This document shows positions 14,092-62,658 of a stretch of 64,000 bases of DNA, piece after piece. Positions within the stretch are counted from its first letter, which is position 1. The number at the start of each line of letters is the position of its first letter. A model generated the notes under the pieces. The model was not told the DNA's origin. It made no database searches and saw only the letters and a program-made list of their open reading frames with translations. Made by a program: the position numbers and the translations under genes. The DNA is from an uncultured Oceanisphaera sp. (GTDB lineage: Bacteria; Pseudomonadota; Gammaproteobacteria; Enterobacterales; Aeromonadaceae): the NCBI RefSeq assembly GCF_947495715.1, contig NZ_CANLZU010000018.1, positions 1-64,000 of the forward strand, written 5' to 3'.

Positions 14092-14358
14092 GGACAAAGG
14101 GCCCGCTCCGCCGACTCGCCGTAAACCCATCCATGGGGGCTCCACCGCGCCATCCCTGGCGCAGAGGGTCGGCGGAGCAGATCCCTTCGTCCTCCTTGAT
14201 GCTACAGAGTCATCTGTTGGCATCGTCTGTAGGCAACTCGGAGCTCAGAAAGAGGCAACAGAGACGAGCTCCCACGACCGTGAAATGCCAGGGATGGCAT
14301 TTCCGAGCCCTCAGGGATGAGTTTATGGCGTGTCGTGGGAGCCGACTGTGTTGCCTCT
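14092..14358 (+). repeat. Compound-hairpin intergenic element, copy 1
   Basis: Module A: outer arms 14092-14115 and 14168-14192 (GGACAAAGGG...CCGCCGAC against its complement), enclosing hairpins at 14126-14137 (loop TCCA) and 14147-14162 (stem GCGCCA, loop TCCC). A spacer runs to ~14250. Module B: outer arms AGAGGCAACA...CTCCCACGAC against GTCGTGGGAGCC...TTGCCTCT, enclosing hairpins at 14282-14303 (stem GAAATGCCA, loop GGGA) and 14310-14321 (loop GGGA). It lies between the convergent dehydrogenase gene and hemY. Open frames here are by-products of the repeats. Other copies are at 25446, 37442 and 62392. Confidence 0.85.
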
Positions 14359-14399
14359 GAATTTCGGGCCAGAGGCTTAATCAAGTAAGTGTAAAGCAC

Positions 14400-14427
14400 A
14401 AAAAAGGAGCCTCACGGCTCCTTTTTT
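14400..14427 (-). terminator. hemY-side bidirectional terminator
   Basis: The same 12-bp stem as at 14035-14061 (AAAAAAGGAGCC/GGCTCCTTTTTT) with loop TCAC. It closes the hemCDXY operon on the minus strand. Confidence 0.88.
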
Positions 14428-14448
14428 GTTGTCTTGATCAATACCGGC

Positions 14449-15624
14449 TCAGGGAGCCAGTGCCAGGCTGTGGCGATAGTAGTCGTTCGCCTTGGCCAGA
14501 TCCTTACGCTTTTCTGCCAGACCGGCCAGCAGCACATAGTCGCCGGCGTAGGGCTTGAGTGCCACCGCCTGCTGCAAGTGTGTCTCCGCTTCTTCCGGCT
14601 TGTCGTCCTTCAGATACAGTTGACCCAGAGTGGAGTGCAGTTCGGGCAGGGTTTCTTTCTTCGCCTGCTTCTCCAGTATGGTCAGCAGCGGATGATAATC
14701 GCTCAGCTGCAATCGGGTCATGCAGGCCAGTAGTCGAGGATCGGTCTTCTTGTTCAGGCCTTCCAGCAGCAACTGCTGGGCTTCTTTATGGGCCTTGAGT
14801 CCAATCAGTCGATCGCACAGCGGGGCCAGAATCTCGGCCTGGTATTTTTCCTTGCGCGGCAGACCCTGCCACAGGGCAATCAGCCCTTCGCTGCCATCGG
14901 CGTTGGCGGTGCTGTCAAACCAGCCGGCATAGGCCTGCTGAGTCAGTTGCTGCTGCTCGTCGACCTCGAGCAGCCCTTTGCCTGCCAGTGCCTCCAGGGT
15001 GCCCAGCAAGGATGACCATTCACCGGTGGCGAAATAGACGTCTTTCTGCAGCTTGAGCAGCGCCGGCTGGCTGCCGTATTCTTTCTCCAGCTGGCGCACA
15101 CCGCTCAGGGCCTGTTCCAGTTGCCCCTGCTGATACTGCAATCGAGCCTGCGTCAGGCCCACGGCCAGGCCGGCACCGGGACTCTGCTCATGAGCCTGGC
15201 GCAAATAGTCGTCGCGCTTTTCTTCATGGCCCAGCGCCTGAGCGGCGGTGGCCGCATTCAGATAGTTGAGCAGCGCCTGATCGTTGCCCTTGGTCCCCTT
15301 GAGCAGCATCTTTTCGGCGGTGGCGTAGTCTTCCGCCACCAGCGCCTGCATGCCGCTTTGGGTGTAATTCAGGGCCTTGCGACGGCGACGGCCGACAAAC
15401 CAGTTGCGGGTGCGATGGCTGACGCCAAAGATCCGACCCAGCAGCCACTCGATGAACAGCAGCAACACATAAAACAGCACCACGGCTACCAGAAACACGG
15501 TGACGGTGGTTTCGATGGTGTAGTTACCGGCAGCCAGCAGTACATAACCCTGCTGACCGGTGATGTCCGGACCTATGACCAGGCCGGCGACCAGAATGAC
15601 GACGATAATGGCAAGACGTATCAT
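14449..15624 (-). CDS. hemY: HemY, TPR membrane protein of the hem operon
   Basis: An inner-membrane protein (391 aa) with two N-terminal membrane segments (MIRLAIIVVILVAGLVIG and TVTVFLVAVVLFYVLLLFIEWLL by composition) and a long helical TPR region reaching the C-terminus. It is the gammaproteobacterial HemY linked to late haem synthesis, unrelated to Bacillus HemY oxidase. Its biochemical role is not settled; a scaffold for haem enzymes has been proposed. It lies 11 bp after hemX as last gene of hemCDXY. Confidence 0.92.
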   Translation of the reverse strand: MIRLAIIVVILVAGLVIGPDITGQQGYVLLAAGNYTIETTVTVFLVAVVLFYVLLLFIEWLLGRIFGVSHRTRNWFVGRRRRKALNYTQSGMQALVAEDYATAEKMLLKGTKGNDQALLNYLNAATAAQALGHEEKRDDYLRQAHEQSPGAGLAVGLTQARLQYQQGQLEQALSGVRQLEKEYGSQPALLKLQKDVYFATGEWSSLLGTLEALAGKGLLEVDEQQQLTQQAYAGWFDSTANADGSEGLIALWQGLPRKEKYQAEILAPLCDRLIGLKAHKEAQQLLLEGLNKKTDPRLLACMTRLQLSDYHPLLTILEKQAKKETLPELHSTLGQLYLKDDKPEEAETHLQQAVALKPYAGDYVLLAGLAEKRKDLAKANDYYRHSLALAP

Positions 15625-15635
15625 GGACTTCTCCC

Positions 15636-16769
15636 TTACAGGCCGGTCAGCAGGCGTTGCAGCCTGTCATCCAGCAGTTGCTGCAGGCGTTCCTGAGCGC
15701 TGAACTGCTCGGGATAGTCCACCTTGATCTGCTGGCCCTCAAGCTGAGCGAGCTGCTCCAGCATGAACTGGCGCACACTGTCGTCGGCAAAATAGTCCTG
15801 CAGCCATTGCTCGGCCTGGGTCAGGGAGCTGTCGTAGATGTCCTGCTGCTCGCGGTAGACCGCCAGTTGAGCCTGCAGCAGCTTGCCCTTGAGGTTTTCG
15901 CTCAGGTACCAGTGTTGCTGTGGTGACAACAGGGCTTCCACGTTGCCGTCGCGACGGCGCACGGTCACGAAGTCGTCGCTGAAGCTGGCCCAGCTTTTCT
16001 TCAGATTTTCCTTCCAGTCGCTGACCGACTCGGACAGGGTGAAGTCCGGCGCTTCGGCCCGGGCCATGATGACACCGGCCAGGGTGAGCTTGTCGACCTG
16101 ATCGTTGATGCTGTTGAGCTTGATCACCAGACCTTCCCGGTCGACTTTTTTTACCGACTTGATGTTGGCGATATCATCAGCCAGCGCGCGGCGTACCGGG
16201 GTCAGGCCGGGATCGTTGAGCGCGGCCAGCCGTTCGTCGGCATTGGCCAGCATCATGGCGGCGGAAACGGCGTCCTGCTCCAGCCAGAGCTTGCGACCGG
16301 CCATGCGCACCAGATATTCGGCTTCCGCCAGCATCCAGTCGTTGGGGCGCTTACTGTCCAGATCCAGCACCTTGTGCGACAGACCCTCGAGCTGTTCGCT
16401 GGTACTGTTCTGGTTGCTTACCACGGCGGCCAGTTTGCTGCTCTGGGCGGCTTCGGCCTGCTCTAAGCGGCTCTGCTGCTGTTGCAGTTCGGTCTGCATC
16501 CGGTTCAGTTGCTCGGTCTGGGCCAGCGCCTGGTTGTGACCGTGCCAGTACAGTATTGCCGCCAGCACGATGGCAATGACAATGGCGATAATGGCCAGTA
16601 TCTTGCCGGATGAAGCGGTCTTCTTCTGTTCAGGCGCTTGTTGTTCCGGTGCTTTTGACTCCGGAGAAGGTGACGTTTCAGGCGATAATGCCTGCTGTTG
16701 CTCGGCATCAACCTCGCCGGCAACCGCCGTGTTCTGATGATCCTGTTTATTGTCAGTCTTGTCTGTCAT
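15636..16769 (-). CDS. hemX: HemX, hem operon membrane protein
   Basis: A protein of 377 aa: an acidic/Gln-rich N-terminal cytoplasmic tail, one membrane segment (ILAIIAIVIAIVLAAILYW near residue 60), then a coiled-coil stretch rich in Gln and Glu and a periplasmic helical domain. It matches the HemX family of proteobacteria, historically annotated as uroporphyrinogen methyltransferase without good support. ATG 16769 (MTDKTDNKQ) was chosen because GAGGAAACGG precedes it; it overlaps the hemD end by 17 nt. Confidence 0.9.
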   Translation of the reverse strand: MTDKTDNKQDHQNTAVAGEVDAEQQQALSPETSPSPESKAPEQQAPEQKKTASSGKILAIIAIVIAIVLAAILYWHGHNQALAQTEQLNRMQTELQQQQSRLEQAEAAQSSKLAAVVSNQNSTSEQLEGLSHKVLDLDSKRPNDWMLAEAEYLVRMAGRKLWLEQDAVSAAMMLANADERLAALNDPGLTPVRRALADDIANIKSVKKVDREGLVIKLNSINDQVDKLTLAGVIMARAEAPDFTLSESVSDWKENLKKSWASFSDDFVTVRRRDGNVEALLSPQQHWYLSENLKGKLLQAQLAVYREQQDIYDSSLTQAEQWLQDYFADDSVRQFMLEQLAQLEGQQIKVDYPEQFSAQERLQQLLDDRLQRLLTGL

Positions 16770-17511
16770 TCCGTTTCCTCTCATCCAGAGCGGCAATCAG
16801 TGCCTGGTTGGATGCACCTTCTGCATTAATGACCTGAGTGAAGCCCAGCTCCCTGGCCTCGATGGCAACCCGTATGCTGGGAACAATCAATAAACGGCTT
16901 AGCAGCCAGTCCTTTGCGCTGACGGCCGCCAGCTGAACAATATGATGCAGCAGGCCGCCACTGGTGATGATAATACTGTCCACATCCTGGCTCTGCCAGC
17001 TTTTAACCAAGGCGCCGCTCGAATCTTTATGATAACGGCGGCGGTAGACTTCGCAGTAATCGACCAGAGCGCCCCTTTGCATCAGGGTGGGGGCGATCAG
17101 GTGACGACCGCCATTGCCCCGCAAAATCACCACTCGGCGCCCGGCCAGTTGCTGCAGGGCCGGCAGTGAAATAATGCCCTCGGAGCGAGGATCGTCGGGC
17201 ACGGCGGCACCGGGAACCCCCACCTCGGCAAAGGCTTTTCCGGTGGCGTCGCCCACGGCAATATAGTTGGCCTTGGGCCAGCCATGCCCCTGTTGTTTCA
17301 AGGCATTATCGGCGAAATGGACCGCCTGTACGCTGACCGCTATCACATAATCTCGAGCCGACAGGCCGTCGAGCAGGGCCGACAGCCGGTCAAACTCGGC
17401 ACCGGCCTCAAAGCTCAGCAGCGGGCTGGTCACCGGTTGGTGACCAGCCGCCAGCAGGGCCTGACTCAGGCTGGCGGCCTGCGGCTCGGCGCGTACCACC
17501 AGCGGTGTCAT
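16753..17511 (-). CDS. hemD: Uroporphyrinogen-III synthase
   Basis: Closes hydroxymethylbilane to uroporphyrinogen III with inversion of ring D. At 252 aa it has the two-domain, weakly conserved HemD pattern: N-terminal [17 protein letters not shown], then the later [10 protein letters not shown] and [18 protein letters not shown] blocks. Identification rests on these and on its place between hemC and hemX. It overlaps hemC by 4 nt (ATGA). Confidence 0.92.
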
Positions 17512-18437
17512 GACCGATAAACCTCGTCCAGTATCTTGTCGGCGCCCCGGGCCAGCAGTCGCTTGGCCATTTCTGCGCCCATGCTCTCACCCTGAGAGGC
17601 GGGGCCGGTCATCTCTTCATAGATGATCTGGCTGCCGTCGGGGCGACCAACCAGGCCGCGCAGCCAGAGTTGGTCACCCTGGAGCTCGGCGTAGGAGCCG
17701 ATAGGCACCTGGCAACCGCCCTGCAGGCCGTGGTTCATGGCGCGTTCCGCCACCACCCGCAGCCGGGTTTCCGGGTGATCGAGAGGAGCCAGCAGTTCGA
17801 GCAACTCGGCATCATCCAGTCGGCATTCGATGCCCACGGCGCCCTGGCCATTGGCGGGCAGGCTGTCTTCCGGGCTCATCAGGCCGGCGATACGCTCGTC
17901 CAGCTCCAGCCGCTTCAGACCGGCGGCGGCCAGAATGATGGCGTCGTACTGGCCTTCATCCAGCTTGCGCAGTCGGGTCTGTACGTTGCCGCGCAGGGTC
18001 TTGACCTCGAGGTGCGGATAACGGGCACGAACCTGGCATTCCCGGCGCAGGCTGGCGGTGCCGACCACGGCGCCGGCCGGCAGCTGTTCGAGATGGGTAT
18101 AGTGATTGGAAACAAAGGCATCACGCGGGTCTTCCCGCTCGCAGATCACGGTCAGGCCCAGGCCCTCGGGAAATTCCACCGGCACATCTTTCATCGAATG
18201 CACCGCAATATCGGCGCGACCGTCCAGCATGGCCTGCTCCAGCTCCTTGATGAAGAGCCCCTTGCCGCCAATCTTGGACAGGGGCGTGTCGAGCAGTACA
18301 TCACCCTGGGTGGTCATCGGCACCAGTTCGACACCGATATGGGGATGCAGTTGCTCCAGCCGGGCCTTGACATAATGGGCCTGCCATAGCGCCAACAGGC
18401 TCTTGCGGGTGGCGATGCGGATGATGCGGTTTGCCAT
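17508..18437 (-). CDS. hemC: Hydroxymethylbilane synthase (porphobilinogen deaminase)
   Basis: Polymerises four porphobilinogens into hydroxymethylbilane. The 309-aa protein begins with [15 protein letters not shown] and has [38 protein letters not shown] and the cysteine that carries the dipyrromethane cofactor in [11 protein letters not shown]. It is first in the hemCDXY operon and divergent from cyaA, the classical enteric arrangement. The shared 197-bp spacer holds the promoters of both. Confidence 0.96.
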
Positions 18438-18570
18438 GTGAATCTCTTCTTTGTGTCCATTAATACGCCGATACTATCATTCCTGTCGGCGCTTTACAGG
18501 GGGGAGAAGAAGGCGCGGCGGCATGTTATCGAAATGTGTCCTGCCACATATTGTTCATCTACCGGCTAAT

Positions 18571-18586
18571 TGTTACCATGATCACA
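18571..18586 (+). promoter_or_regulatory. Putative CRP-cAMP site upstream of cyaA
   Basis: TGTTACCATGATCACA fits the CRP consensus TGTGA-N6-TCACA with one mismatch. It lies 49 bp before the cyaA start codon in the hemC-cyaA spacer. E. coli cyaA is repressed by CRP-cAMP at a promoter site, so this is likely the same feedback loop. Confidence 0.6.
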
Positions 18587-18634
18587 CTTTTGACCTGTTC
18601 CGGGTCTGTGTCGGTCCACCAAAGGCCTGAACCC

Positions 18635-21157: not shown

Positions 21158-21465
21158 AGTGCCAGCTCGGTGTCACCCTGGCGTTGTGCCTGCAGGCTGA
21201 GCCAGCTCAGCAGCTCAACACCCTGGCGGTTATCGATCCACTTATCGCCCTGCAGGGCGAAGTGATGGCCGTTCTCCCGGGTGGCCAGCCAGATCTGATG
21301 CAGCGGCTCCTGGCGATTGATCACGAACTTGATGTTGTTCTCGAAGGTCAGCGTCATGACGCCGCCGATGGTTTCGCAGTCGATATCGACGCCGCTGCTA
21401 TCGATGCACTCTTCAATATGCTGGTAAATGGCATCCGCCAGAGCATGGAACTCACTGTCTTTCAT
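21154..21465 (-). CDS. cyaY: CyaY (bacterial frataxin)
   Basis: An iron-binding regulator of iron-sulfur cluster assembly that slows IscS/IscU in vitro. The 103-aa protein has the acidic first helix ([19 protein letters not shown]), the beta-sheet with [23 protein letters not shown], and [14 protein letters not shown] 21465 has AGGAA upstream. It is convergent with cyaA and divergent from lptM, as in enterics. Confidence 0.95.
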
Positions 21466-21537
21466 CGCCCGCTTCCTATTGCTTTTGAGAATGTGAATGC
21501 GATTATAAGAGCCTGGAAACATATTCACAGTCATCCT

Positions 21538-21660: not shown

Positions 21661-21671
21661 AGGAAAATACC

Positions 21672-22928: not shown

Positions 22929-22937
22929 GGGGTGAAC

Positions 22938-25403: not shown

Positions 25404-25445
25404 CGTCTGGATATTAAGTATCTACTCATATTGAGAAATCAGGCC

Positions 25446-25847
25446 AGAGGCAACACAGCCGCCTCCCTCGACACGCCACTGGGCTAGCCATCTTTGCTGG
25501 GTAATGGCTGCGAATATTCACTGGATATTCGGTCCATTACCCAACAAAGATACACGGCAGCAAGCTGCCCCATGGGGGCTCGGAAATGCCGTCTGACCGC
25601 CAGGGAGGGCGGGAATGCCGTAACGGCAGGAGCATTTTCCGGCCCTGGCATTTCACGGTCGTGGGAGTCGTTCTCTGTTGCCTCTTCTTGAACACCGAGT
25701 GGTCCGTAGACGGCGCCAACAGGGCACGCCGGTGTATAAAGGAGGACAAAGGGATCTGCTTCTTCGACCATCACATGACAGGGATGTCATGTGCTGAGCG
25801 CCACAAGGAGGTGCTTGAGCGGGTCGAAGAAGCGGGCCCTTTGGCCG
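25446..25847 (-). repeat. Compound-hairpin intergenic element, copy 2 (inverted, expanded)
   Basis: The reverse orientation of copies 1, 3 and 4. Module B starts at AGAGGCAACA (25446). Module A lies at the right, from GGACAAAGGG (25744) to AGCGGGCCCTTTGGCCG (ending 25847), enclosing the hairpin 25772-25793 (stem CACATGACA, loop GGGA). Module B has gained sequence: a foldback with 18-nt arms and one mismatch (25490-25507 with 25534-25551), GGCAG/CTGCC at 25556-25569, and CCGCC-AGGGA-GGGCGG. It splits xerC from yigB. The 25404-25932 gap holds nothing else recognisable. Confidence 0.8.
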
Positions 25848-25932
25848 ATGTTTTCGGCAAATTCAACAAGGCTCCGGATGTTGAGCCTGCTTTTTGGTTA
25901 GAATCCCTCATCTCCCGTTATCAGGAATCCTC

Positions 25933-26679: not shown

Positions 26680-26862
26680 GGGATAGAGGGCCGCCACACC
26701 AACACGCAGCATTGAATGCCACCTTCGCTTGTTGCCTGCTGCGAACTTTCACCGGAAGTTTGGTCAGGCAACAAGCTTGGTACTCGCGAGCAAGCTCGCC
26801 CCTGTATGCTCGGCGATGGCATCCCTGCCATCGACGGTTGGTTTAGGCCATCCCTCTATCCC
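26680..26862. repeat. Related compound-hairpin element before uvrD
   Basis: The outer stem GGGATAGAGGG (26680-26690) pairs perfectly with CCCTCTATCCC (26852-26862). Inside are CTTGTTGCCTG/CAGGCAACAAG, which itself encloses AACTT/AAGTT, then GCGAG-CAAG-CTCGC, and the hairpin 26814-26833 (stem CGATGGCA, loop TCCC). Outer sequences differ from copies 1-4, but the TCCC-loop hairpin is the same type, so this looks like another subfamily. Confidence 0.65.
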
Positions 26863-36036: not shown

Positions 36037-36708
36037 ATGGTTATTTCTCCTGCTCAATACCGCACGGCGCTGATTCGGCTGTCGCTGTTCCATGTTGCCA
36101 TCATTGCCGCCAGTAACTATCTGGTGCAGCTGCCCTTTACCCTGTTCGGCTTTCATACCACCTGGGGCGCGCTCAGTTTTCCCTTCATCTATCTGGCCAC
36201 GGATCTGACGGTACGCATCTTCGGGGCCGACATGGCGCGACGCATCATCTTTCTGGTGATGCTGCCGGCACTGGTCACCTCTTATGTGTTGTCGGTGCTG
36301 TTTTTCGAGGCGCAATATCAGGGACTGGCCTCCCTGTCCGAGTTCAACCTGTTTGTGGCCCGTATCGCCCTGGCCAGCTTCATGGCTTATGTGCTGGGGC
36401 AGATCATGGATGTCTCGGTATTCAACCGGCTGCGGCAGATAAAGACCTGGTGGGTGGCACCCACCTGTTCCACCATCTTCGGTAACCTGGTCGATACTCT
36501 GGTGTTCTTCGGCCTGGCGTTTTATCGCTCACCGGATCCCTTCATGGCCCAGCACTGGGTTGAAATTGCCTGGGTGGATTACGGCGTCAAGCTGGTGTTC
36601 AGTCTGGTGTTGTTCGTGCCCGCCTATGGTCTGCTGCTCAAATACCTGAGCAGCAAGTTTGTCGGCCACGCCAACACCGGCGTCGAGGTTGGCGTTAAAG
36701 CCGGGTGA
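36037..36708 (+). CDS. yhhQ: Queuosine precursor transporter YhhQ
   Basis: An inner-membrane protein of 223 aa with about six helices, of the ECF-like COG1738 family that imports 7-cyano- and 7-aminomethyl-7-deazaguanine. It has SNYLVQLPFTLFGFHTTWGALSFP, FPFIYLATDLTVRIFG, and WVAPTCSTIFGNLVDTLVFF. AAGG lies 6 nt before the ATG within the putative preQ1 switch. Its end overlaps the next, convergent gene by 14 bp. Confidence 0.93.
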   Translation: MVISPAQYRTALIRLSLFHVAIIAASNYLVQLPFTLFGFHTTWGALSFPFIYLATDLTVRIFGADMARRIIFLVMLPALVTSYVLSVLFFEAQYQGLASLSEFNLFVARIALASFMAYVLGQIMDVSVFNRLRQIKTWWVAPTCSTIFGNLVDTLVFFGLAFYRSPDPFMAQHWVEIAWVDYGVKLVFSLVLFVPAYGLLLKYLSSKFVGHANTGVEVGVKAG

Positions 36709-37306
36709 TTGCCGCGATATCGAGGGCCTCGGCATAGGCGTTGAGGTCCTCTTCCGTTACGCTCCGGCCGTTGAGCTGGATCAGGATGCGGTTGGCCACC
36801 AGCATCTGCAGCTCCCGGCGACTGCCTTCCTCTTTCATCATGGCGGTTTGTCCCTGAATGCGCTTTATCTTGTAACCTCCCATGGCCGCCATGCTGGGGT
36901 TGGTAAAGAGTACTGCCATGGTCTGCAGCAGGGGGGAGTCTTTGGTAATGCTGATTTCCAGGCTGCCGCCGTCTTTACGATAGCGGCGGGATGCGTTGAT
37001 ACCACCGCCGAAAAAGGCCGCCGAACCGGCCTGGGTATTTACCTTTTCGGCCTGCCAGCCGGCAAGTGGCTCCGGAAACAGGGTGCCGAGTTCGCCGGCC
37101 TGCAACTGACGGATCAGGGTGGCGACATAATCGAACTGTGCCGCCGCCTGTGACAGCTCGCCGGCGTCAAAGGCCCGGTTACCTTCGGTGATGGCCTGCC
37201 TGATGTCGGCGTTGGTTTCGGCTTGAGTATCGGTCTCATCGGCGAACGGTGCACCGGGCAGCAAGAGCCCCGCCCATAACCCAATCCATAAATACGGTTT
37301 GTTCAT
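36695..37306 (-). CDS. Exported protein of unknown function
   Basis: A 203-aa precursor with a Sec signal peptide (MNKPYLWIGLWAGLLLPGAPFA) and GGAGGG ribosome site. The N-terminal part is helical and TPR-like (EGNRAFDAGELSQAAAQFDYVATLIRQ). The C-terminal part is alpha/beta with AFFGGGINASRRYRKDGGSLEISITKDSP. I do not recognise a named family. It is probably soluble and periplasmic. Upstream lies hairpin element copy 3, so its promoter must fall in 37307-37441. Confidence 0.82.
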   Translation of the reverse strand: MNKPYLWIGLWAGLLLPGAPFADETDTQAETNADIRQAITEGNRAFDAGELSQAAAQFDYVATLIRQLQAGELGTLFPEPLAGWQAEKVNTQAGSAAFFGGGINASRRYRKDGGSLEISITKDSPLLQTMAVLFTNPSMAAMGGYKIKRIQGQTAMMKEEGSRRELQMLVANRILIQLNGRSVTEEDLNAYAEALDIAAITRL

Positions 37307-37441
37307 CTGCTTCCCTCCGGCTGTCTTTCACCCATTGTAGTCAAGTTGCCACCGGGGGGAGTCAGGGGCGGGAGCAAGGAAAAGCTGCAGTAATACCACT
37401 TACATTAAACACTCGATCTTGTTGACTGTCATACCTATCCC

Positions 37442-37725
37442 GGACAAAGGGCCCGCTCCACCGACTCGCTCAAGCACCTCCTTGTGACGCTCAGCACATG
37501 ACGTCCCTGTCATGTGATGGTCGGCGGAGCAGATCCCTTTGCCCTCCTTGATGCTCCGGTGTCGCCTGTTAGCGCTGCCTGGGGACAACTCGGTGTTCCA
37601 GAAGAGGCAACAGAGAACGGCTCCCACGACCGTGAAATGCCAGGGACGGCATTTCCGAGCCCCCACGGATGGGTTTATGGCGTGTCGAGGGAGGCGGCTG
37701 TGTTGCCTCTGGTCAGGATGACCAG
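37442..37725 (+). repeat. Compound-hairpin intergenic element, copy 3
   Basis: Same orientation and modules as copy 1. Module A encloses the hairpin 37495-37516 (stem CACATGAC, core loop TCCC). Module B encloses 37634-37655 (stem GAAATGCC, loop AGGGAC) and 37662-37673 (stem CCCA, loop CGGA). Outer arms run AGAGGCAACA...CTCCCACGAC to CGTGTCGAGG...TTGCCTCT. A terminal hairpin follows at 37709-37725 (stem CTGGTCA, loop GGA). It lies between an unknown gene's start and ryhB. Confidence 0.85.
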
Positions 37726-37761
37726 ATTATTACCGGGATTGGTATAAGTGTAGAAATTTAT

Positions 37762-37790
37762 TTGCAATTACAAATGATAACGATTATCGT
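37762..37790 (+). promoter_or_regulatory. ryhB promoter with Fur box
   Basis: TTGCAA (37762-37767), 17-bp spacer, TATCGT (37785-37790). Overlapping the -10 is TGATAACGATTATCG (37775-37789), 13 of 15 matches to the 7-1-7 Fur box TGATAATNATTATCA. Iron-loaded Fur bound here would block transcription. Confidence 0.8.
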
Positions 37791-37796
37791 TACTTT

Positions 37797-37934
37797 GCTT
37801 TCGGAACATGACTTCCACTCTCTTCTGCAGTAGGTGAAGCCTCTTTCCAGCGGTAGGTGAAGACAGCTTGCGAAGGCACGACATTGCTCACATTGCTTCC
37901 AGAGTTTTAGGCCGGCTTATGCCGGCCTTTTTTT
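37797..37934 (+). ncRNA. ryhB: RyhB iron-stress small RNA
   Basis: An Hfq-dependent sRNA that in E. coli/Vibrio represses mRNAs of iron-using proteins (sodB, sdh, fum and others) when iron is short. Positions 37876-37902 (GCACGACATTGC...CACATTGCTTCCAG) are, from memory, identical to the RyhB target-pairing core. A Fur box lies upstream, and a perfect 8-bp terminator stem (37909-37916 with 37921-37928) plus T7 follows. The ~138-nt length is longer than E. coli (90) and shorter than V. cholerae. The extra 5' part holds a near-duplicate of ~22 nt (both units end TAGGTGAAG, at 37831 and 37854). The 5' end is predicted from the promoter. Confidence 0.9.
37909..37934 (+). terminator. ryhB terminator
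   Basis: AGGCCGGC-TTAT-GCCGGCCT followed by T7. It also lies just beyond the elbB end on the other strand. Confidence 0.9.
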
Positions 37935-41976: not shown

Positions 41977-42023
41977 GGCTTCCGGCTGGCATTTGCCTGC
42001 CGGGGTCGTTATTATCGAGTCTT

Positions 42024-42109
42024 GTTAGTCGGGGAGCCGCGAGGCTGAGACGGTATCAATGCCGGACCCGCCGTACCTGATCCAGTTAATGCTGGCGTAG
42101 GAAACTAAC
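42024..42109 (+). promoter_or_regulatory. TPP riboswitch (THI element)
   Basis: The conserved segments of the thi-box are present in order: CGGGGAGCC, GGCTGAGA, GGACCCG, TACCTGATCCAGTTAATGCTGGCGTAGG. The P1 stem closes as GTTAGT (42024-42029) with ACTAAC (42104-42109). It precedes thiD, so thiamine pyrophosphate should lower thiD expression. GGCAA/TTGCC (42111-42128) may be part of the expression platform; the ribosome site AAGGAT is 27-32 nt further on. Confidence 0.93.
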
Positions 42110-42160
42110 GGGCAAGCGTCAGTTTGCCGGTGGTGCCTTCGCCCGGAGGACCATAAGGAT

Positions 42161-48282: not shown

Positions 48283-48286
48283 GCCG

Positions 48287-50561: not shown

Positions 50562-50564
50562 GGT

Positions 50565-52403: not shown

Positions 52404-54236
52404 ATGCGATTATCGCTGAAGGGACGAATAGCGCTCATTATCATGACCGGTGCCGTGCTGACGGTCGTGGCCGTGCTGTTGACGGTCTATCACTCGCTGG
52501 TGGACGACCTCGAGCAGTTGCACCGCCAGCGCCAGGCGGAGGAAACGGTCAGGGCGGCCGAGCAGGTGGAGCAGGTGCTGGCCCTCAGGCTGAATGCGCT
52601 GGAAAGCTTCAGCGCCCAGTTGTCTAACGGACTCAACCTCGACCCCATGAGCCAGTTGCTCACCAAGATGGAGCGGCAGCGCCATCTGCGAAGATTCTTT
52701 CCGGATGGCCTTATGGTCTTTGACAGCAACGGCACCGCCATCGCCGAAAGCACGCTGGTGCCGGGGCGAGTGGGTACCAATTATGCGGATCGGCCTCATT
52801 TCAAGCGGCTCTTTACCACCCGCAAGCCGGTGATCAGTCACCCCATTATCGGACGTACCACAGGAGCGCCGCTGGTGTCCTTTTTGAGTCCGATCCTGTC
52901 GGATGACGGCGATTTGCTCGGTATTCTGGGTGGGGTGATCAATCTGGCCCAGACCTCCATTCTGCCGAAGCGGCGACTGGCCGATGCCCTGCGGGAAGGG
53001 GTGACTTTCAGGATTCTGGACACCGACAACCTGGTGTATGTCTATAACGGTGCCGATTTGTCGAGTGAACTGCAACCATTGCCTGCCCCCGGGGAGAGTC
53101 CGCTGATTGACGCCGCCCTGTCCGGTTTCAATATCGGCATCACCCAGGATGAAAATCGGCAGCAAATGGTCTTTGCCACCACCCATCTGGAGCAATTGCG
53201 GTGGGTGTTCGTTCGTGCCGTGCCCTACGACCAGGTGATTGCCCCGGCCCGGGCATTTTTTCTGCGTTTTGCCGGCATCAGTGTGCTGATTGGCGGCGGA
53301 CTGGCGCTGCTGGCATTCTGGCTGGCCTGGACCGCGATGCGGCCGCTGGAATTCATGACCCGACAAATCCGGCGCATGGCGACCCAGGCCGCGAATAACC
53401 AGCAGTTGCCCGAAACCGGCGTAACCGAGGTGGCGGAGCTGGCACGGGCCTTCAACCAGCTGACCGCCGAGCGCAAGGCGTTGAGCGAGGTCAAGGATGA
53501 CTTCGTGGCGGTGGTCAGTCATGAACTGCGTACTCCGCTGACCTCGATCAACGGGGCGCTGAAGCTGATGCAGTCGGGGGCGGTGGGCGCCCTGCCGGAA
53601 AAAGCCGATAACCTGACGTTGCTGGCATTGCGCAACGGCGAGCGTTTGCAGACCATCATCAATGACCTGCTGGACTTCAACAAGCTGAATGCCGGTAAGC
53701 TGGAACTGGCACCCAAGCCCTGCTGTATCATGACGCTGGTCAAGGAGGCGATAGCCGGTAACCGACCCATGGCCGATGACTACCGGGTGACCCTGTGCAG
53801 CGCCACCGCCCCGGTGCCATCGGCATACCTCGATCCGCTGCGCTTGCGGCAGGTTCTGGATAACCTGATCAGCAATGCCATCAAATTTTCTCCGCCCGGC
53901 GGTACCGTCACGGTACGGGTCGAGTGGCATCTCCCCGACTGGCTGCGGATTACCGTCAGCGATCAGGGAGAAGGCATTCCGGAAGCCTTTGGTGGTCGTC
54001 TGTTCGAGCGTTTTGCCCAGGCCGAACACGGCACCATGCGTGCCAGCAGAGGAACCGGGCTGGGCCTGGCGATTTGCAAGGAACTGGTGGAATTGATGGA
54101 AGGGCGCATCGGTTTTTATAACCGGGACGGTGCCCATCTGTGGGTGGAGCTGCCGGGTGCGGTTTCGAGCGATAGTACCGAGCATCGGATTATTGAGGAT
54201 ATGAGTGATGATCATCCCATCTGTACCGACCGATGA
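52404..54236 (+). CDS. Membrane sensor histidine kinase (Cache-HAMP-HisKA)
   Basis: A 610-aa inner-membrane kinase: membrane segment 8-28, periplasmic Cache-type sensor (about 30-285; DGLMVFDSNGTAIAESTLVPG and YADRPHFKRLFTTRKPVIS), second segment 287-308, HAMP linker, HisKA with His373 in VVSHELRTPLTSI, and HATPase with N box DNLISNAIKFSPPGG, DQGEGIPE and GTGLGLAICKELV. No receiver domain is attached. Its end overlaps the next kinase gene by 29 nt, so both are co-translated. The ligand is unknown. Confidence 0.92.
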   Translation: MRLSLKGRIALIIMTGAVLTVVAVLLTVYHSLVDDLEQLHRQRQAEETVRAAEQVEQVLALRLNALESFSAQLSNGLNLDPMSQLLTKMERQRHLRRFFPDGLMVFDSNGTAIAESTLVPGRVGTNYADRPHFKRLFTTRKPVISHPIIGRTTGAPLVSFLSPILSDDGDLLGILGGVINLAQTSILPKRRLADALREGVTFRILDTDNLVYVYNGADLSSELQPLPAPGESPLIDAALSGFNIGITQDENRQQMVFATTHLEQLRWVFVRAVPYDQVIAPARAFFLRFAGISVLIGGGLALLAFWLAWTAMRPLEFMTRQIRRMATQAANNQQLPETGVTEVAELARAFNQLTAERKALSEVKDDFVAVVSHELRTPLTSINGALKLMQSGAVGALPEKADNLTLLALRNGERLQTIINDLLDFNKLNAGKLELAPKPCCIMTLVKEAIAGNRPMADDYRVTLCSATAPVPSAYLDPLRLRQVLDNLISNAIKFSPPGGTVTVRVEWHLPDWLRITVSDQGEGIPEAFGGRLFERFAQAEHGTMRASRGTGLGLAICKELVELMEGRIGFYNRDGAHLWVELPGAVSSDSTEHRIIEDMSDDHPICTDR

Positions 54237-57042: not shown

Positions 57043-57060
57043 GATAGTAAGGTGTGAATG

Positions 57061-57084
57061 GTGAGGTGTGAGGTTACGCCTCAC
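57061..57084. repeat. GTGAGG-type short palindromic repeat, copy 2
   Basis: GTGAGGTGTGAGG directly followed by TTACGCCTCAC, which folds as GTGAGG/CCTCAC. The same two blocks occur at 41921-41962. It sits between the convergent kinase gene and rsuA and may help end both transcripts. Confidence 0.6.
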
Positions 57085-57106
57085 TCTGCCCCCCGCACCC
57101 TTTACG

Positions 57107-57793: not shown

Positions 57794-58446
57794 CAGGCGT
57801 TCTCACCGTCGGCGCTTGCTGCCGCCGGCTCATCGTCCTGATCCTGCAGCAGCCATTCGCTGAGGATTTCCTTGGCTCTGTCCAGGCCCAGGCCCTTGAG
57901 CGAACTGAACGATTCGACTCGAATGTCGCCACCGAACACGGTCACGGCTTCGCGCACTCGCAGCACTTCGGACTTGCGCGGGCCCGGCTTGAGCTTGTCA
58001 CACTTGGTCAGCAGTGCCAGTACCGGCAGCTTGCTTTCGCTGGCCCATTGCAGCAACTGCTGATCGATGTCCTTGAGCGGATGCCGAATGTCCATCAGCA
58101 CCACCAGACCCTTGAGGCTTTCGCGGTGTTGCAGGTAGACCGACAGGGCTCGCTGCCATTTCAACTTCATTTCTTCCGGCACCTTGGCATAGCCGTAGCC
58201 GGGCAGATCGATCAGCCGCTTGCCTTCGCTCAGCTCGAACACGTTGATCAGCTGGGTACGGCCCGGGGTTTTACTGGTCCGCGCCAGACTTTTCTGCTGC
58301 GTTATGGTGTTAAGTGCGGATGATTTACCGGCGTTTGAGCGTCCGGCAAAAGCTATCTCTATGCCGCTGTCTTCCGGCATTTGATTGATATCGGGCGCGC
58401 TGGTAATAAAGCGGGCGGTGTTAAAATTTATCTGCTTGTTATTCAA
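57793..58446 (-). CDS. engB: Ribosome-biogenesis GTPase EngB (YihA/YsxC)
   Basis: An essential-type TRAFAC GTPase for 50S assembly, 217 aa. G1 [10 protein letters not shown]2 region [11 protein letters not shown]3 DLPGYGYA, G4 TKCDKL are all present. It is transcribed away from the cytochrome c4 gene. In E. coli it neighbours polA; here it lies 15 kb from polA, with mrp and signalling genes between. Confidence 0.95.
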
Positions 58447-58589
58447 TATGAATTCCCCCGGGTTCTGAACCCGCTTTGCTTACTTTTTCGCAAAATCATT
58501 GTAGAATGGTGTCGTTTTTTGAATCGCATTGTAACATGCCCTCGCAGGTATGTGATCTGGAAGCTCTTACAACGAGAAGTCGGAACGTC

Positions 58590-59207
58590 ATGAAAAAAAT
58601 TATTTTCACGCTAGCCTTAACACTCGGAATGGCCGGTGTTGTCCAGGCACAGGGCGATGTCGAAGCAGGTAAAGCCAAATCTGCCACCTGCGTGGCATGC
58701 CACGGTGCCGATGGCAACAGCCCGACCGATATGTATCCCAAACTGGCCGGTCAGCATGCCTCTTACCTGGCCAAGCAACTGGCCGAGTTCAAGGCCGCCG
58801 CCACCGGTGGTGAAGGCCGTGCCAACGCCATCATGGGCGGCATGTCCATGCCGCTGAGCGAACAGGACATGGCCGATGTGGCTGCCTATTTCGCCAGCCA
58901 GGCCGTTACCCCTGTCGCCACGCCGGAAGAGGTGATCGAGCAGGGTGCCGCCCTGTATCAGGGTGGTGACATCGAGCGCGGTATTACCGCCTGTATCGCC
59001 TGTCACGGCCCCCGTGGCGAAGGCCTGGAATCGGCCAAGTTCCCGCGGCTGTCTGGTCAGTACCCTGCCTATATTGCGGCTCAGCTGAAGATGTTCCGCA
59101 GTGGCGAGCGTGCCAACGACCACAACGGCATGATGCGCGGCGTTGCTGCCAAGCTGACCGATAACGATATCGACGTACTGTCCCAGTACGTAGCGGGTCT
59201 GCGTTAA
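58590..59207 (+). CDS. Dihaem cytochrome c4
   Basis: A periplasmic electron carrier, 205-aa precursor with signal peptide (MKKIIFTLALTLGMAGVVQA) and two homologous halves. The haem motifs are CVACH and CIACH, with axial Met in GGMSMPLSEQD and in NGMMRGVAAKLTD. Cytochrome c4 feeds terminal oxidases, notably cbb3 types, in many gammaproteobacteria. It lies next to engB as in Vibrio and Pseudomonas. A GC-rich hairpin (59220-59236) followed by a T-rich patch may end the message. Confidence 0.93.
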   Translation: MKKIIFTLALTLGMAGVVQAQGDVEAGKAKSATCVACHGADGNSPTDMYPKLAGQHASYLAKQLAEFKAAATGGEGRANAIMGGMSMPLSEQDMADVAAYFASQAVTPVATPEEVIEQGAALYQGGDIERGITACIACHGPRGEGLESAKFPRLSGQYPAYIAAQLKMFRSGERANDHNGMMRGVAAKLTDNDIDVLSQYVAGLR

Positions 59208-59255
59208 TACTATCACTCCGGGGGCCCGGCGCCCCCTGCTTTCTCTGGTTTCCCC

Positions 59256-59918
59256 ATGTCTGCCCTGCTGCACGACCTGAACTGTCCCCTTTGTGACCAT
59301 ATCGAGACGTCTCTGTTCTGGCAGGATGCGCGGCGGCGTTACCATTGCTGTGAGCGGTGCCGACTGATTTTTGTCGACCCCGACAATCGGCTGGATGCGG
59401 CAGCGGAGAAGGCAGAATATGATTTGCATGAGAATCGGCCCGATGACATGGGCTATCGGCGTTTTCTGGCGCGAGTGGCCGATCCGCTGATGACCCGCCT
59501 GCCGGCAGGCAGCCGAGGGCTCGATTTCGGTTGTGGCCCCGGCCCGGCGCTGGCGGCCATGCTGAGTGAAGCAGGCTTTGCCACCACCACCTATGATCCT
59601 TACTATGCACATTATCCGGACCGGTTGCAGCAGCGTTACGACTTTGTCTGCTGCACCGAGGCGATAGAACATTTTTACCGGCCGGGCAGGGAATGGCAGC
59701 AGTTGCTGACCCTGCTTCGACCGGGAGGCTGGCTGGCCATCATGACCAAGCTGGCTCGAGACCAGGCGGCCTTTGCCAACTGGCATTACAAACAGGATCC
59801 CACCCATGTCAGCTTTTTCAGCCGGGAAACCTTTCTCTGGCTGGCGGCACGGGACGGGCTCGGTATCGAATTCATCGGTGCCGATGTGATACTTCTGCAA
59901 ATACCGGAGTCTGTATGA
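59256..59918 (+). CDS. Class I SAM-dependent methyltransferase
   Basis: A 220-aa protein with an N-terminal zinc-ribbon-like part (CPLC...CERC, residues ~10-40), then a Rossmann methyltransferase domain. Motif I is GLDFGCGPGPALAAML, followed by DFVCCTEAIEHF and LLRPGGWLAIMTKLA. The substrate is unknown; RNA, protein or small-molecule acceptors are all possible. It overlaps yihI by 4 nt (ATGA), which suggests a job in or near ribosome assembly, but this is context only. Confidence 0.82.
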   Translation: MSALLHDLNCPLCDHIETSLFWQDARRRYHCCERCRLIFVDPDNRLDAAAEKAEYDLHENRPDDMGYRRFLARVADPLMTRLPAGSRGLDFGCGPGPALAAMLSEAGFATTTYDPYYAHYPDRLQQRYDFVCCTEAIEHFYRPGREWQQLLTLLRPGGWLAIMTKLARDQAAFANWHYKQDPTHVSFFSRETFLWLAARDGLGIEFIGADVILLQIPESV

Positions 59919-60505
59919 CACGCATTAAAAAGACCCGTACTCCGGGTCAAATCGGAGCCCGCAAGGAAAGTCGGGAAACTGCCGAGCAGAGCAAGGATCG
60001 CAAGCGCAAGGCCAAACGCAAGGGGCTGGCACCCGGCTCCCGGCATAACACCGGCGAGTCCGGCCAGCAGCACGGCGGCAGCAAGACACCTCGGGATCCG
60101 CGTCTGGGTTCGAAAAAACCGATAGCCCTGGTGCAGGGGGAAACCACCAAGGTGGCCGATTCCTCCAAGCCTGCCAAGCCGGCCAAGGCCCCCAAACCGG
60201 CCAGGGTAACACCGGTTATCGACACCGATGTCGAGGCGCTGACGCCGGAACAGGAACTGGAGCAGCTGGAAAACAACGAGCGGCTCAATACCCTGCTGGA
60301 TAAAGTGGATGCGGGCGAGAAGCTGGGCAAAAACGATGCCGGCTGGCTGGACCAGACCCTGGCTCGTCATCAGCAGTTGCTGGAAGAACTCGGCCTGCTG
60401 GAAGAAGATGAAGAAGAGCCGGCAGAAGGCGACGATCTCTGGACCCGTTTTATGGATGCGGATCTTGATCCTGCGCAATACGAAGACAAGGAAGATAAGT
60501 CATGA
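59915..60505 (+). CDS. yihI: YihI, activator of the GTPase Der
   Basis: A GAP-like regulator of Der (EngA) in 50S assembly. At 196 aa it has a very basic, disordered N-terminal half with RKAKRKGLAPGSRH and DPRLGSKKPIAL, conserved in E. coli YihI, and an acidic helical C-terminal half (EQELEQLENNERLNTLLDKV). A Lys/Pro/Ala-rich stretch near residues 85-100 is an insertion relative to E. coli. ATG 59915 matches the family start. It overlaps both neighbours. Confidence 0.9.
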   Translation: MTRIKKTRTPGQIGARKESRETAEQSKDRKRKAKRKGLAPGSRHNTGESGQQHGGSKTPRDPRLGSKKPIALVQGETTKVADSSKPAKPAKAPKPARVTPVIDTDVEALTPEQELEQLENNERLNTLLDKVDAGEKLGKNDAGWLDQTLARHQQLLEELGLLEEDEEEPAEGDDLWTRFMDADLDPAQYEDKEDKS

Positions 60506-60960
60506 TCTCACCCTGGTTGATTGCCGCCCTCGTGGGCGGCGTCATCATAGTGGGGCTGGCGGTTTATGCGGGTAGATTGCTGGCTCGACTGAAGCTGCAA
60601 ACCCAGCGCCAGCAGCAGGCCATTACCCGGCGTAACGAGCGTATTCTGGAGAGCATTCGCACCATCGCCATGGCGGTGCGCGAAGATCAATGCAACCTGT
60701 CGGAAGGCGCCATTCGGCTGGCCAACCTGCTCAACGCCCTGCAGTTTGCACAGCCAAAGGAATTTGCCGGCGAATACCCGGGCCTCTACGATCTGTATGA
60801 ACGGGTCAGAGAAATGCCGACCCACGACGCCCGCAAGCAGTACAAGCGCAACGAAATCATGCGTATGGATCTGCAACGAGCCGGTTTCGAACAGGAACTG
60901 GAAGCACAAATCAAAATTGAGGTAACGCGGCTGGCCAGCCTGGAACTGCCCGGTCGCTGA
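60502..60960 (+). CDS. DUF2489 family membrane-anchored protein
   Basis: A 152-aa protein with one N-terminal membrane helix (WLIAALVGGVIIVGLAVYAG) and a helical cytoplasmic domain containing RIANLL-type heptads. It matches the DUF2489 family found between yihI and hemN in Vibrio and Aeromonas. The function is unknown. It overlaps yihI by 4 nt and is 12 nt from hemN. Confidence 0.87.
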   Translation: MISPWLIAALVGGVIIVGLAVYAGRLLARLKLQTQRQQQAITRRNERILESIRTIAMAVREDQCNLSEGAIRLANLLNALQFAQPKEFAGEYPGLYDLYERVREMPTHDARKQYKRNEIMRMDLQRAGFEQELEAQIKIEVTRLASLELPGR

Positions 60961-60972
60961 CCGGGAGAGGTT

Positions 60973-62343
60973 ATGTCAGCACAGATAGAGTGGGATCAGG
61001 CCCTGATCGAAAAGTATAACTATTCGGGGCCGCGTTATACTTCTTACCCCACGGCGCTGGAGTTCAATGACGGCTTTGGCATGGCGGAACTCGAAGCCGC
61101 CGCCGGCCGTTATCCCGGACGACCGCTGTCGCTCTATGTGCATATCCCCTTCTGCCACAAGCTGTGTTACTACTGTGGCTGCAACAAGGTCATCACCCGT
61201 CACCAGGACAAGGCCGACATCTACCTTGATTATCTGGAGCGGGAAGTTGCGCGTCTGGCACCGCTGTTTGTCGATCGCACCGTAACCCAGTTGCACTGGG
61301 GCGGCGGCACCCCCACCTTTTTGACCGAACCCCAGATCCGTCGTCTGAACGGCCTGCTGCGCCGGCACTTTCGCTTTGCCGAACAGGGCGAATTCAGCAT
61401 CGAGATCGATCCGCGCCGCATCGAGCTGAGCCTGCTGGATGTGCTGAAAGAGGAAGGTTTCAACCGTATCAGCCTGGGCGTGCAGGACTTCAACAAAGAC
61501 GTGCAGCGGGTGGTCAACCGGGAGCAGGATAACGACTTCATCAAGGCGCTGGTCAGCCGGGCCGCCGAGCTGGGCTTCGGCTCCACCAATCTGGATCTGA
61601 TCTACGGCCTGCCGCTGCAGACCCCGGAAAGCTTTCACCATACCCTGGAACAGGTGGTGGCGATGAAGCCGGCCCGTCTGTCGGTGTTCAATTATGCTCA
61701 CCTGCCGAGCCGTTTCTCTGCCCAGCGCAAGCTGAAAGATGAGGATATGCCGGCCCCGGCGAAGAAGCTGGCGATGTTGCAGGACAGCATCGCCTATCTG
61801 ACCGGCCAGGGTTATCAGTTTATCGGCATGGATCACTTTGCGCTGCCGGACGACAGCCTGGCGGTGGCCCAGCGGGAAGGCGAGCTGCACCGCAATTTTC
61901 AGGGTTATACCACCCAGGGTGACTGCGATTTACTGGGGCTGGGGGTGTCGGCCATCAGCATGATTGGTGATGCCTACTCCCAGAATCACAAGGATCTGAA
62001 GCTGTATTACGGCCAGCTGGACGAATTGGGCCACGCCCAGACCGTCGGCTATGCCCTGAACGAAGACGACTGTCTGCGCCGGGATCTGATCAAGACGTTG
62101 ATCTGCAACTTCGAGCTGGAATTCGCGCCGCTGGAGCGGCAGTACGGCATTGGTTTTGCCGACTATTTCGCCGAGGATCTCAAGCTGCTGCAGACCTTCA
62201 TCGACGATGGTCTGGTGACCTTGAGCGACGACGCCATCAAGGTTGCGGCCAAGGGCCAGCTGCTGATCCGCAATATCTGCATGTGTTTCGACGTGCACCT
62301 GCGCCGCCAGGCGCGGATGCAACAGTTCTCGCGGGTTATTTAA
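60973..62343 (+). CDS. hemN: Oxygen-independent coproporphyrinogen III dehydrogenase
   Basis: A radical-SAM enzyme making protoporphyrinogen IX without oxygen. At 456 aa (E. coli 457) the cluster cysteines are C61, C65 and C68 in PFCHKLCYYCGC, with GGGTPTFL, IEIDPRR, ISLGVQDF and NLDLIYGLPLQT. Last of the methyltransferase-yihI-DUF2489-hemN string. No FNR site was found near it. Hairpin element copy 4 follows. Confidence 0.96.
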   Translation: MSAQIEWDQALIEKYNYSGPRYTSYPTALEFNDGFGMAELEAAAGRYPGRPLSLYVHIPFCHKLCYYCGCNKVITRHQDKADIYLDYLEREVARLAPLFVDRTVTQLHWGGGTPTFLTEPQIRRLNGLLRRHFRFAEQGEFSIEIDPRRIELSLLDVLKEEGFNRISLGVQDFNKDVQRVVNREQDNDFIKALVSRAAELGFGSTNLDLIYGLPLQTPESFHHTLEQVVAMKPARLSVFNYAHLPSRFSAQRKLKDEDMPAPAKKLAMLQDSIAYLTGQGYQFIGMDHFALPDDSLAVAQREGELHRNFQGYTTQGDCDLLGLGVSAISMIGDAYSQNHKDLKLYYGQLDELGHAQTVGYALNEDDCLRRDLIKTLICNFELEFAPLERQYGIGFADYFAEDLKLLQTFIDDGLVTLSDDAIKVAAKGQLLIRNICMCFDVHLRRQARMQQFSRVI

Positions 62344-62391
62344 GCGAAGCGCTACGACGCAATCGAAGCTGCATGTTCGTTGTCACATATC

Positions 62392-62658
62392 GGACAAAGG
62401 GCCCGCTCCGCCGACACGCCATGAACCCATCCGTGGGAGCTCTCTGTTTCATCCCTGAAACAGAAGGTCGGCGGAGCAGATCCCTTTGTCCTCCTTTGAG
62501 CCGCGCGTTGTCAGATGGTACTCCCAACAAACAGCTCCGGTTCATGGAGGAGGCTGCAGGGATTGCCTTAGCCGACCGTCACATGACAGGGATGTCATGT
62601 GCTGAGCGCTACATGGACGTACTTGAAGCGTGTCGGAAGAGGCAACCCTGGTGCCTCT
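62392..62658 (+). repeat. Compound-hairpin intergenic element, copy 4
   Basis: Same orientation as copies 1 and 3. Module A: arms from GGACAAAGGG (62392) to CCCTTTGTCC (ending 62491), enclosing CCCA-TCCG-TGGG and the hairpin 62444-62463 (stem CTGTTTCA, loop TCCC). Module B is diverged: it carries hairpin 62580-62601 (stem CACATGACA, loop GGGA), identical to one in copy 2's module A, and ends in AGAGGCA/TGCCTCT (62638-62658). It lies between convergent hemN and add and fills the gap 62344-62685. Confidence 0.82.

Follow-up and report, generated by a model that had tools for sequence, protein, structure and literature searches.

Related repeats and RNAs

The closest described relative of the elements analysed here is YPAL, a mobile, intergenic repeat known from Yersinia and from Erwinia carotovora and described there as one single unit (PMC2759123, PMC2229807); according to a review, it might affect the stability of upstream transcripts (PMC2229807). 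The target-site duplications reported for YPAL vary from 3 to 26 bp. The YPAL/Ysr224 repeat has been known since 2006-2007, and one survey places it with those annotated sRNAs that are most abundant. When examining a window of 64,000 nucleotides from an uncultured Oceanisphaera sp., we found four elements, at the positions assigned to them by a first-pass annotation that had overlooked their identity as mobile repeats of the YPAL type. All four are instances of one mobile, non-coding repeat that occurs in many gamma-proteobacteria and has YPAL as its Yersinia version. The published 168-bp RU-2 of Y. pestis shares with the modules the core of the junction, the two CANGGATG loops, and GAGC and GCG as junction residues. 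In an alignment with three window modules it matches along the entire core, the invariant columns of which include GAGC, GCG and the two GGA loops, and the outer arms diverge. By contrast with the single YPAL unit, the family described here forms inverted doublets and tandem arrays, has other stem sequences and extends across the class.

The repeat is not wholly new, given that YPAL/RU-2 of Yersinia contains the module and that four module loci are covered, on the other strand, by the Rfam family Ysr224 (Yersinia sRNA 224, RF02770). These matches above the gathering score are at L237 and L212 in Pectobacterium and at L145 and L146 in genomes of the same order; modules elsewhere give weak matches, and the window gives none at the gathering score (70 bits). 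The Rfam model, moreover, represents the UCC strand, in another fold. The novelty lies in a superfamily that spans the class, in the junction and the loop match, and in the doublet order and the asymmetry of G.U over A.C; in those parts of the YPAL literature that could be consulted, we found no report of the junction, a CsrA match or a superfamily.

Two further systems invite comparison. REP sequences, which bear a GTAG or CGTC tag, form the doublets known as REPINs and BIMEs. Such doublets are short, mobile and inverted, are built from a structured module and occur in high copy number. The present family has these properties of the doublets, but its modules are 73-nt junctions rather than palindromes of 20-40 nt, the length given for REP (PMC3733652). 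CsrA is a global regulator, the free level of which is set by RNA decoys (PMC4894983, PMC4383904). The CsrA sponges of the CsrB/RsmY/RsmZ type carry several GGA hairpin loops on one RNA, as does the present family, which, however, is dispersed, mobile and junction-based and has no known promoter; the corresponding Rfam families do not match the window at the gathering score. The TwoAYGGAY RNA, considered on account of its loop name, gave no match at four loci with E up to 10, although its model may have been absent from the search set.

Elements of the window and their family

The module is a covarying three-way junction of about 73 nt (73 model positions), with two hairpins on one strand. The small hairpins of the first-pass annotation are real, but each of the foldback modules thought to enclose them is one three-way junction. 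A covariance model built from 93 modules of the Oceanisphaera genome, including seven from the window, detects seven strong modules in the window. Copy 1 (14092-14358) is an inverted doublet in which the GGA strand is minus in the left module (14106-14177; 85.7 bits; loops CAGGGATG and CATGGATG on the minus strand) and plus in the right one (14269-14341; 96.2 bits; CAGGGATG twice on the plus strand). The inverted doublet of copy 3 (37440-37712), located upstream of a RyhB match (37872-37934), comprises a left module on the minus strand (37456-37529; 72.1 bits; loops CAGGGACG and CAAGGAGG on that strand) and a right module on the plus strand (37621-37693; 92.5 bits; CAGGGACG and CACGGATG). Copy 4 (62392-62658), between convergent ORFs, has the same arrangement, with a minus-strand left module (62406-62476; 85.0 bits; CAGGGATG and CACGGATG on the minus strand) and a plus-strand right module (62567-62641; 65.5 bits; CAGGGATG and CATGGACG). 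In copy 2 (25446-25850), the right module (25759-25832, plus; 72.3 bits; CAGGGATG and CAAGGAGG) is accompanied by a left module that is remodelled by extra hairpins and matches weakly (25553-25663, minus; 18.3 bits, E 0.003). The exposure of GGA on opposite strands, previously proposed for copies 1, 3 and 4, holds in these copies and, by the weak match, in copy 2 as well, and the presence of ACAGGGATGT within hairpins of copies 2 and 4 was confirmed. To the four copies has to be added a degenerate solitary module at 26763-26846 on the minus strand (29.2 bits, E 9e-7), which had been missed. One more match to the covariance model, the tenth in the window (53458-53520, plus; 15.3 bits, E 0.027), is at chance level.

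The repeat family of the window elements numbers at least 150 modules in the Oceanisphaera genome and is present in 75 of the 369 sampled genomes, within the gamma-proteobacterial class; a search of plasmids and phages for it gave no match. Inverted doublets account for 37 of the 59 elements of the own genome and solitary modules for 122 of the 163 elements of other genomes; doublets are 62:4 in the count made with a foreign set free of own-genome loci. Within the genus, copy number ranges from 2 to at least 120, depending on the species.

Conserved structure and loops

The stems covary, as the first-pass annotation had argued from the four copies. Standard pairs occupy 91.3% of the 2532 own-genome pair cells compared to 75.9% in shuffles, and 386 cells, compared to 125 in shuffles, are changed on both sides. 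In the class-wide alignment, the share of standard pairs is 91.2% vs 61.2%, and 23 of the 27 pairs show changes on both sides. Selection on structure is strongly supported by this covariation, in the own genome and class-wide, and the elements are neither devoid of covariation nor simple duplicates with random loops.

The loops, by contrast, are fixed: CANGGANG is found in 179 of 181 scorable own-genome hairpins (5 of 186 loops, those with a gap, being omitted) and in 177 of 186 scorable hairpins class-wide (6 of 192 omitted), not counting loci L165-L244, for which the selecting pattern already contained GGGA loops. This CANGGANG core corresponds to the RsmE/CsrA consensus, published as A/UCANGGANGU/A, and the sites lie in hairpin loops, in pairs, about 22-25 nt apart from start to start. 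All six fixed positions and both free positions of the loop coincide with the consensus, a stronger match than had previously been noticed; the outermost A/U positions of the consensus are stem positions in the modules and are variable. Pairing alone does not explain the conservation of the loop A, since it is retained in all 57 own-genome cases in which the opposite base is other than T. When the whole copies are folded as RNA, both strands fold, and the module loops leave their GGA bases unpaired (P 0.9-1), with two exceptions, both at the initial G of the second loop (P 0.08 on the plus strand of copy 4 and 0.48 on the minus strand of copy 3).

The pairs of the GGA strand are, moreover, asymmetric. 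G.T exceeds A.C by 29:10 (p 0.003) in the own-genome set, the only one that was found blind to structure, and by 53:19 (p 0.00008) class-wide and 57:32 (p 0.011) in the pattern-chosen loci, two sets aligned by a model that favours G.U over A.C; only hexaloop A-N pairs are omitted from these counts. By clustered origins, with more pair columns omitted (7 own-genome, 4 class-wide and 5 pattern-chosen, or 2 in another count), the ratios are 16:6, 36:12 and 44:19, respectively, the p value for the structure-blind set being only 0.053. The asymmetry suggests that the folding strand is the GGA strand.

The best explanation for these features is putative docking of CsrA. We give roughly an even chance to the full reading, in which non-autonomous mobile repeats of a single gamma-proteobacterial superfamily, YPAL/RU-2 among them, carry candidate docking sites for CsrA. 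Selection would act on the GGA strand in its three-way-junction fold, the paired CANGGANG loops of which are laid out suitably for a CsrA/RsmA dimer to bind both sites. GGA-strand transcripts would bind CsrA and so alter mRNA fate locally, and the copies collectively would titrate CsrA; we infer transcription, binding and the effect on mRNA or free CsrA from the features described above. Most own-genome elements being inverted doublets, a transcript of either strand would display one pair of sites. Solitary modules, which are commoner elsewhere, show sites in one direction only, so this two-strand logic is not general. If the prediction is correct, jumping DNA may scatter candidate docking sites for a master regulator, such that paired CsrA sites reside on a mobile element with more than 100 copies, their number and placement differ between close species, and copy changes could shift CsrA output even with CsrA and CsrB themselves unaltered. 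The YPAL/Ysr224 repeat also gains a role that can be put to the test, and its natural range reaches well outside Yersinia.

Gene context, mobility and alternative explanations

The elements sit between genes, preferring convergent gaps and avoiding divergent promoters. With genes called by longest-ORF heuristics, and counting those elements that have a gene no more than 700 nt away on either side (which omits 33 of 163 in other genomes and 2 of 59 in the own genome), convergent and divergent gaps are 39:16 with modules vs 40:46 without in other genomes (p 0.005), and 32:5 vs 5:18 in the own genome (p 9e-7). This preference is compatible with a stabiliser or attenuator of mRNA 3' ends, the fold of which would protect or shape upstream transcripts, as proposed for YPAL (PMC2229807), with the loops serving folding or a protein other than CsrA. 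Among solitary and same-strand modules between tandem genes, there is no bias for GGA in sense: 31 are GGA-sense vs 42 UCC-sense (p 0.24), divided into 24 vs 37 in other genomes and 7 vs 5 in the own genome. Under the stabiliser explanation, this is to be expected given that both strands fold. Structure alone, however, requires no CANGGANG in both loops while nearly every stem pair varies, nor does a structural role predict the wobble asymmetry, so we consider this explanation unlikely, if a serious contender. A transcription terminator was set aside as the main role, since the fold, the loops and the gene context all point to something more.

The missing sense bias counts against CsrA docking as well, as do the modelling of Ysr224 on the UCC strand and the existence of element-bearing genomes that gave no CsrA match. 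The earlier proposal that the transcripts are CsrA decoys or regulated 3' UTRs is partly supported: the motif match stands, and the simple 3'-UTR reading has the 31 vs 42 split and the strand of Ysr224 against it.

The same two genes that flank copy 4 lie without a module between them in 12 of 23 other loci, only one flank having been found in the remaining 11; this is the one site examined, and its empty state in 12 relatives fits mobility. The intergenic flanks diverge too far from those of the relatives to define a target-site duplication of 3-26 bp. Hairpins serve the IS200/IS605 enzymes or the REP-associated (RAYT) enzymes as a single-stranded DNA substrate, and the junction with its loops could, in principle, be recognized in this form by a transposase or relaxase, the resemblance to CsrA sites being coincidental. 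The filled and empty sites, the absence of gene-sense bias and the REPIN-like inverted doublets are all in accord with such recognition, and tolerance of G.T over A.C could likewise be a property of a substrate made of one DNA strand. IS608-like enzymes, though, are expected to be coupled to the lagging strand. In genome G023, among the 64 modules listed of 75, 29 are GGA-leading vs 35 GGA-lagging (27 vs 35 without two modules near the turning point), so the expectation for IS200/IS605-like elements is not borne out. An autonomous form, in which two modules would enclose a transposase, was also considered and rejected: judged by eye, the ORFs between paired modules look like ordinary chromosomal genes, and neither a transposase of any kind nor, specifically, a RAYT or Y1 transposase gene was seen there. 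Recognition of DNA would furthermore reduce to coincidence the fit to the CsrA site at all of its six fixed positions and at its two free ones, and we regard it as doubtful.

A neutral selfish repeat, with a structure that reflects ancestry and recent copying and no role for the host, would account for the high copy number, its wide variation within the genus (2 to at least 120) and the site that is empty in relatives. Recent copying alone is unlikely to yield compensatory change at nearly every pair with unchanged loops; such changes across families of the class, with the loops constant, call for selection at least on active copies and make strict neutrality improbable. That a class-wide mobile RNA family disperses paired CsrA sites through gamma-proteobacterial genomes, rewires and buffers the CsrA network and copies itself via folded GGA-strand RNA, as a bacterial SINE-like retroelement, seems highly improbable, even if such copying would fit the strand-specific wobble, the 3-26 bp duplications reported for YPAL and the fact that no partner transposase was seen.

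CsrA across genomes, doublet arms and tandem arrays

With regard to CsrA docking, the distribution of CsrA itself shows a modest association with the elements, by statistics that ignore phylogeny: CsrA was found in 65 of 66 element-bearing genomes of good quality vs 58 of 67 non-bearing ones (Fisher p 0.017), and, over all genomes, in 75 of 80 vs 67 of 80, which is not significant (p 0.078). A CsrA match is absent in 5 of the 80 element-bearing genomes, one of them (G600) of good quality; in the G600 module, at L163, the loops are intact.

A comparison within 35 own-genome doublets gave their arms a lower similarity score than left-right partners after shuffling (24.3 vs 31.6, sd 2.0), which would fit avoided cross-pairing, but could also be produced by subfamily history. 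In two tandem arrays (L084 and L151), which bring to mind the multiple GGA loops of the CsrB/RsmY/RsmZ sponges, the two-loop module is repeated five and six times.

A repeat family of three-way junctions

The four compound hairpin elements of the first-pass annotation (copies 1 to 4, at 14092-14358, 25446-25847, 37442-37725 and 62392-62658) were all found in the window and belong to a repeat family. Copy 4 has at least 51 BLAST matches in the 3.65-Mb genome of the same organism (40 of the 212 candidates scored), and the genome-wide covariance-model search proposed in that annotation yielded at least 150 modules there. Read along the strand that carries the GGA loops (the GGA strand; the opposite one is the UCC strand), the module is about 73 nt long. 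In order, it comprises the outer stem and the first hairpin, whose hinge T is invariant in the own-genome and class-wide alignments; next come a lone A and a short GC clamp from which the second hairpin arises, followed by the conserved sequence TT-AC-GCG. This architecture is a three-way junction. A degenerate further module, missing from the earlier annotation, lies at 26763-26846, downstream of a HAD-like ORF. Copy 2 contains an extra long hairpin (25490-25551, 18-bp stem) that stands where its left module would have the second small hairpin; judged by eye, similar hairpins are present in three other loci (L015, L020 and L046) and represent a recurrent remodelled subtype.

In the own genome, 37 of the 59 elements are doublets of inverted modules, usually with a core-to-core gap of 91 nt and all with the GGA strand minus in the left module and plus in the right one. 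The 163 elements from other genomes include 122 solitary modules, 25 minus-plus and 4 plus-minus doublets, 1 minus-plus-plus element and 11 same-strand runs, and the overall ratio of minus-plus to plus-minus doublets is 62:4. Tandem same-strand arrays of four to six modules, at L084:829-1573 (period about 168 nt), L107:1248-2078 (about 253 nt), L151:1935-3143 (about 227 nt) and L231:2433-4003 (about 290 nt), resemble CsrB-style multi-site arrays.

Selection on the fold

The proposed covariation of the stems was borne out. Among 93 own-genome modules collected with a sequence profile blind to pairing, standard pairs occupy 91.3% of the pair cells compared with 75.9% in shuffled alignments, and double changes number 386 versus 125. 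Double changes occur at 24 of 28 pairs once modules from six genomes of other genera and families are added, and at 23 of 27 pairs in the class-wide alignment, which is 91.2% paired versus 61.2%; shifting the partners by 1-3 columns reduced pairing to 28-48% across these three sets. When copies 1, 3 and 4 were folded as whole RNAs, the two modules formed separate local folds and kept both hairpins on either strand, with the second hairpin varying in detail. The GGA loops are mostly open in the whole-copy folds, the first G being paired or half-paired in two of these loops. The left module of copy 2, which is remodelled, did not show the two loops.

A G.T pair on the GGA strand becomes G.U in GGA-strand RNA, whereas an A.C pair corresponds to G.U in RNA of the UCC strand. 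When just the hexaloop pairs are excluded, G.T exceeds A.C by 29:10 (p 0.003) in the structure-blind set, 53:19 (p 0.00008) in the class-wide set and 57:32 (p 0.011) in the set chosen with a GGGA-loop pattern, the latter two being aligned with an RNA model that may lean toward such an excess. Counted by clustered, likely independent origins, the respective ratios are 16:6, 36:12 and 44:19 (p 0.053, 0.0007 and 0.002, with more columns excluded). This excess points to folding of the GGA strand, as RNA or as single-stranded DNA, in preference to a double-stranded cruciform.

Relationship to YPAL, distribution and probable mobility

The RU-2/YPAL sequence printed in PMC2759123 contains the module. 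According to a review (PMC2229807), YPAL elements duplicate 3-26 bp of target sequence, at or beside dyad symmetry, and may alter how stable upstream transcripts are. At module loci L237 and L212 (both in Pectobacterium), L145 and L146, Rfam Ysr224 exceeds its cut-off score, on the strand opposite to the GGA strand; a survey (PMC9029176) ranks Ysr224 with the most abundant of the annotated sRNAs and describes it as responding to temperature.

The model has hits in all 23 same-genus genomes, the own one included, in both of two other genera of the family and, elsewhere in the order, in 4 of 16 members; g20, another genus of the family, is mostly devoid of hits (of the genomes listed, 1 has a hit and at least 20 have none). 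Broader sampling gave 87 positives among 394 genomes of the order, 75 among 369 of the class (67 of 272 genera) and 29 among 398 of the phylum, all 29 within the same class. Hosts of the DNA pattern among the matches listed include Shewanella, Zobellella, Marinobacter, Microbulbifer, Halopseudomonas, Pectobacterium, Rheinheimera and Sedimenticola.

The copy 4 site was sought in 23 genomes of the genus, and 23 loci besides the own one were compared. The module is absent between both flanking genes in 12 of these, including the three closest full-length relatives, and only one flank was found in the other 11. The intergenic sequence of the relatives differs from the own one and is too unlike it for a target duplication to be readable. 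At this one site, the relatives may instead have lost the module. The empty sites (L283, L284, L285 and others) harbor short repeats of the type CATTCCCC / GGGGAATG, which form a dyad between the convergent genes. Altogether, the repeats very probably constitute a mobile YPAL superfamily whose junction fold is under selection.

Loop conservation and CsrA

Both hairpins end in C-A-N-G-G-A-N-G, in 179 of 181 scorable own-genome cases and 177 of 186 class-wide cases, the class-wide counts being not independent of the search because the models used there reward these loops. All four bases occur at each N position, and the loop A persists even opposite a base other than T (57 of 57 such own-genome cases). 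The suggested likeness to CsrA sites holds: the RsmE/CsrA consensus A/UCANGGANGU/A, as printed in PMC6849547 and PMC6153318, is matched at fixed and free positions alike.

CsrA (PF02599) is found in 75 of 80 module-bearing genomes (73 from the class sample and seven others, the own one included) versus 67 of 80 non-bearing ones (79 hand-picked from the class sample, and G030; Fisher p 0.078), and, among good-quality genomes, in 65 of 66 versus 58 of 67 (Fisher p 0.017). This association is consistent with a CsrA role but is no proof, given that the statistics ignore lineage. Several observations speak against such a role: one genome (G600, 98% complete) yielded no CsrA match yet has intact loops in L163; solitary and same-strand modules between tandem genes display no preference for the GGA sense (31 GGA-sense to 42 UCC-sense, p 0.24; 24:37 in other genomes and 7:5 in the own genome); and the Ysr224 model describes the UCC strand. 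A search of the partly accessible literature found no link between YPAL and CsrA, although a paper on both that does not mention RsmA could escape it, and absence from print is not claimed. The main alternative is a putative DNA-processing enzyme that reads the loops, which would explain their conservation. CsrA binding may be the reason for the loop conservation, with the chances about evenly balanced.

Gene and replication context

Module-bearing gaps are enriched for convergent over divergent genes, with ratios of 32:5 versus 5:18 in module-free gaps of the own genome (p 9e-7) and 39:16 versus 40:46 at the loci of other genomes (p 0.005). In genome G023, with replichores assigned from GC skew, GGA is on the leading strand in 29 and on the lagging strand in 35 of the 64 modules listed out of 75. 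On its contig C1, 42 of the 64 listed modules are on the minus strand, in both replichores, a bias that none of the explanations considered covers.

Copy 3 departs from the usual convergent setting: it is flanked by a leftward ORF (36695-37306) and an Rfam RyhB match (37872-37934), and a Fur-box-like sequence is present near 37770 in the region 37440-37934. This places the copy close to the probable promoter of an iron sRNA. The window also contains a TPP riboswitch match (42020-42120, 74.2 bits), and a module-bearing locus of Zobellella denitrificans carries group II intron domains (L180:3473-5226).
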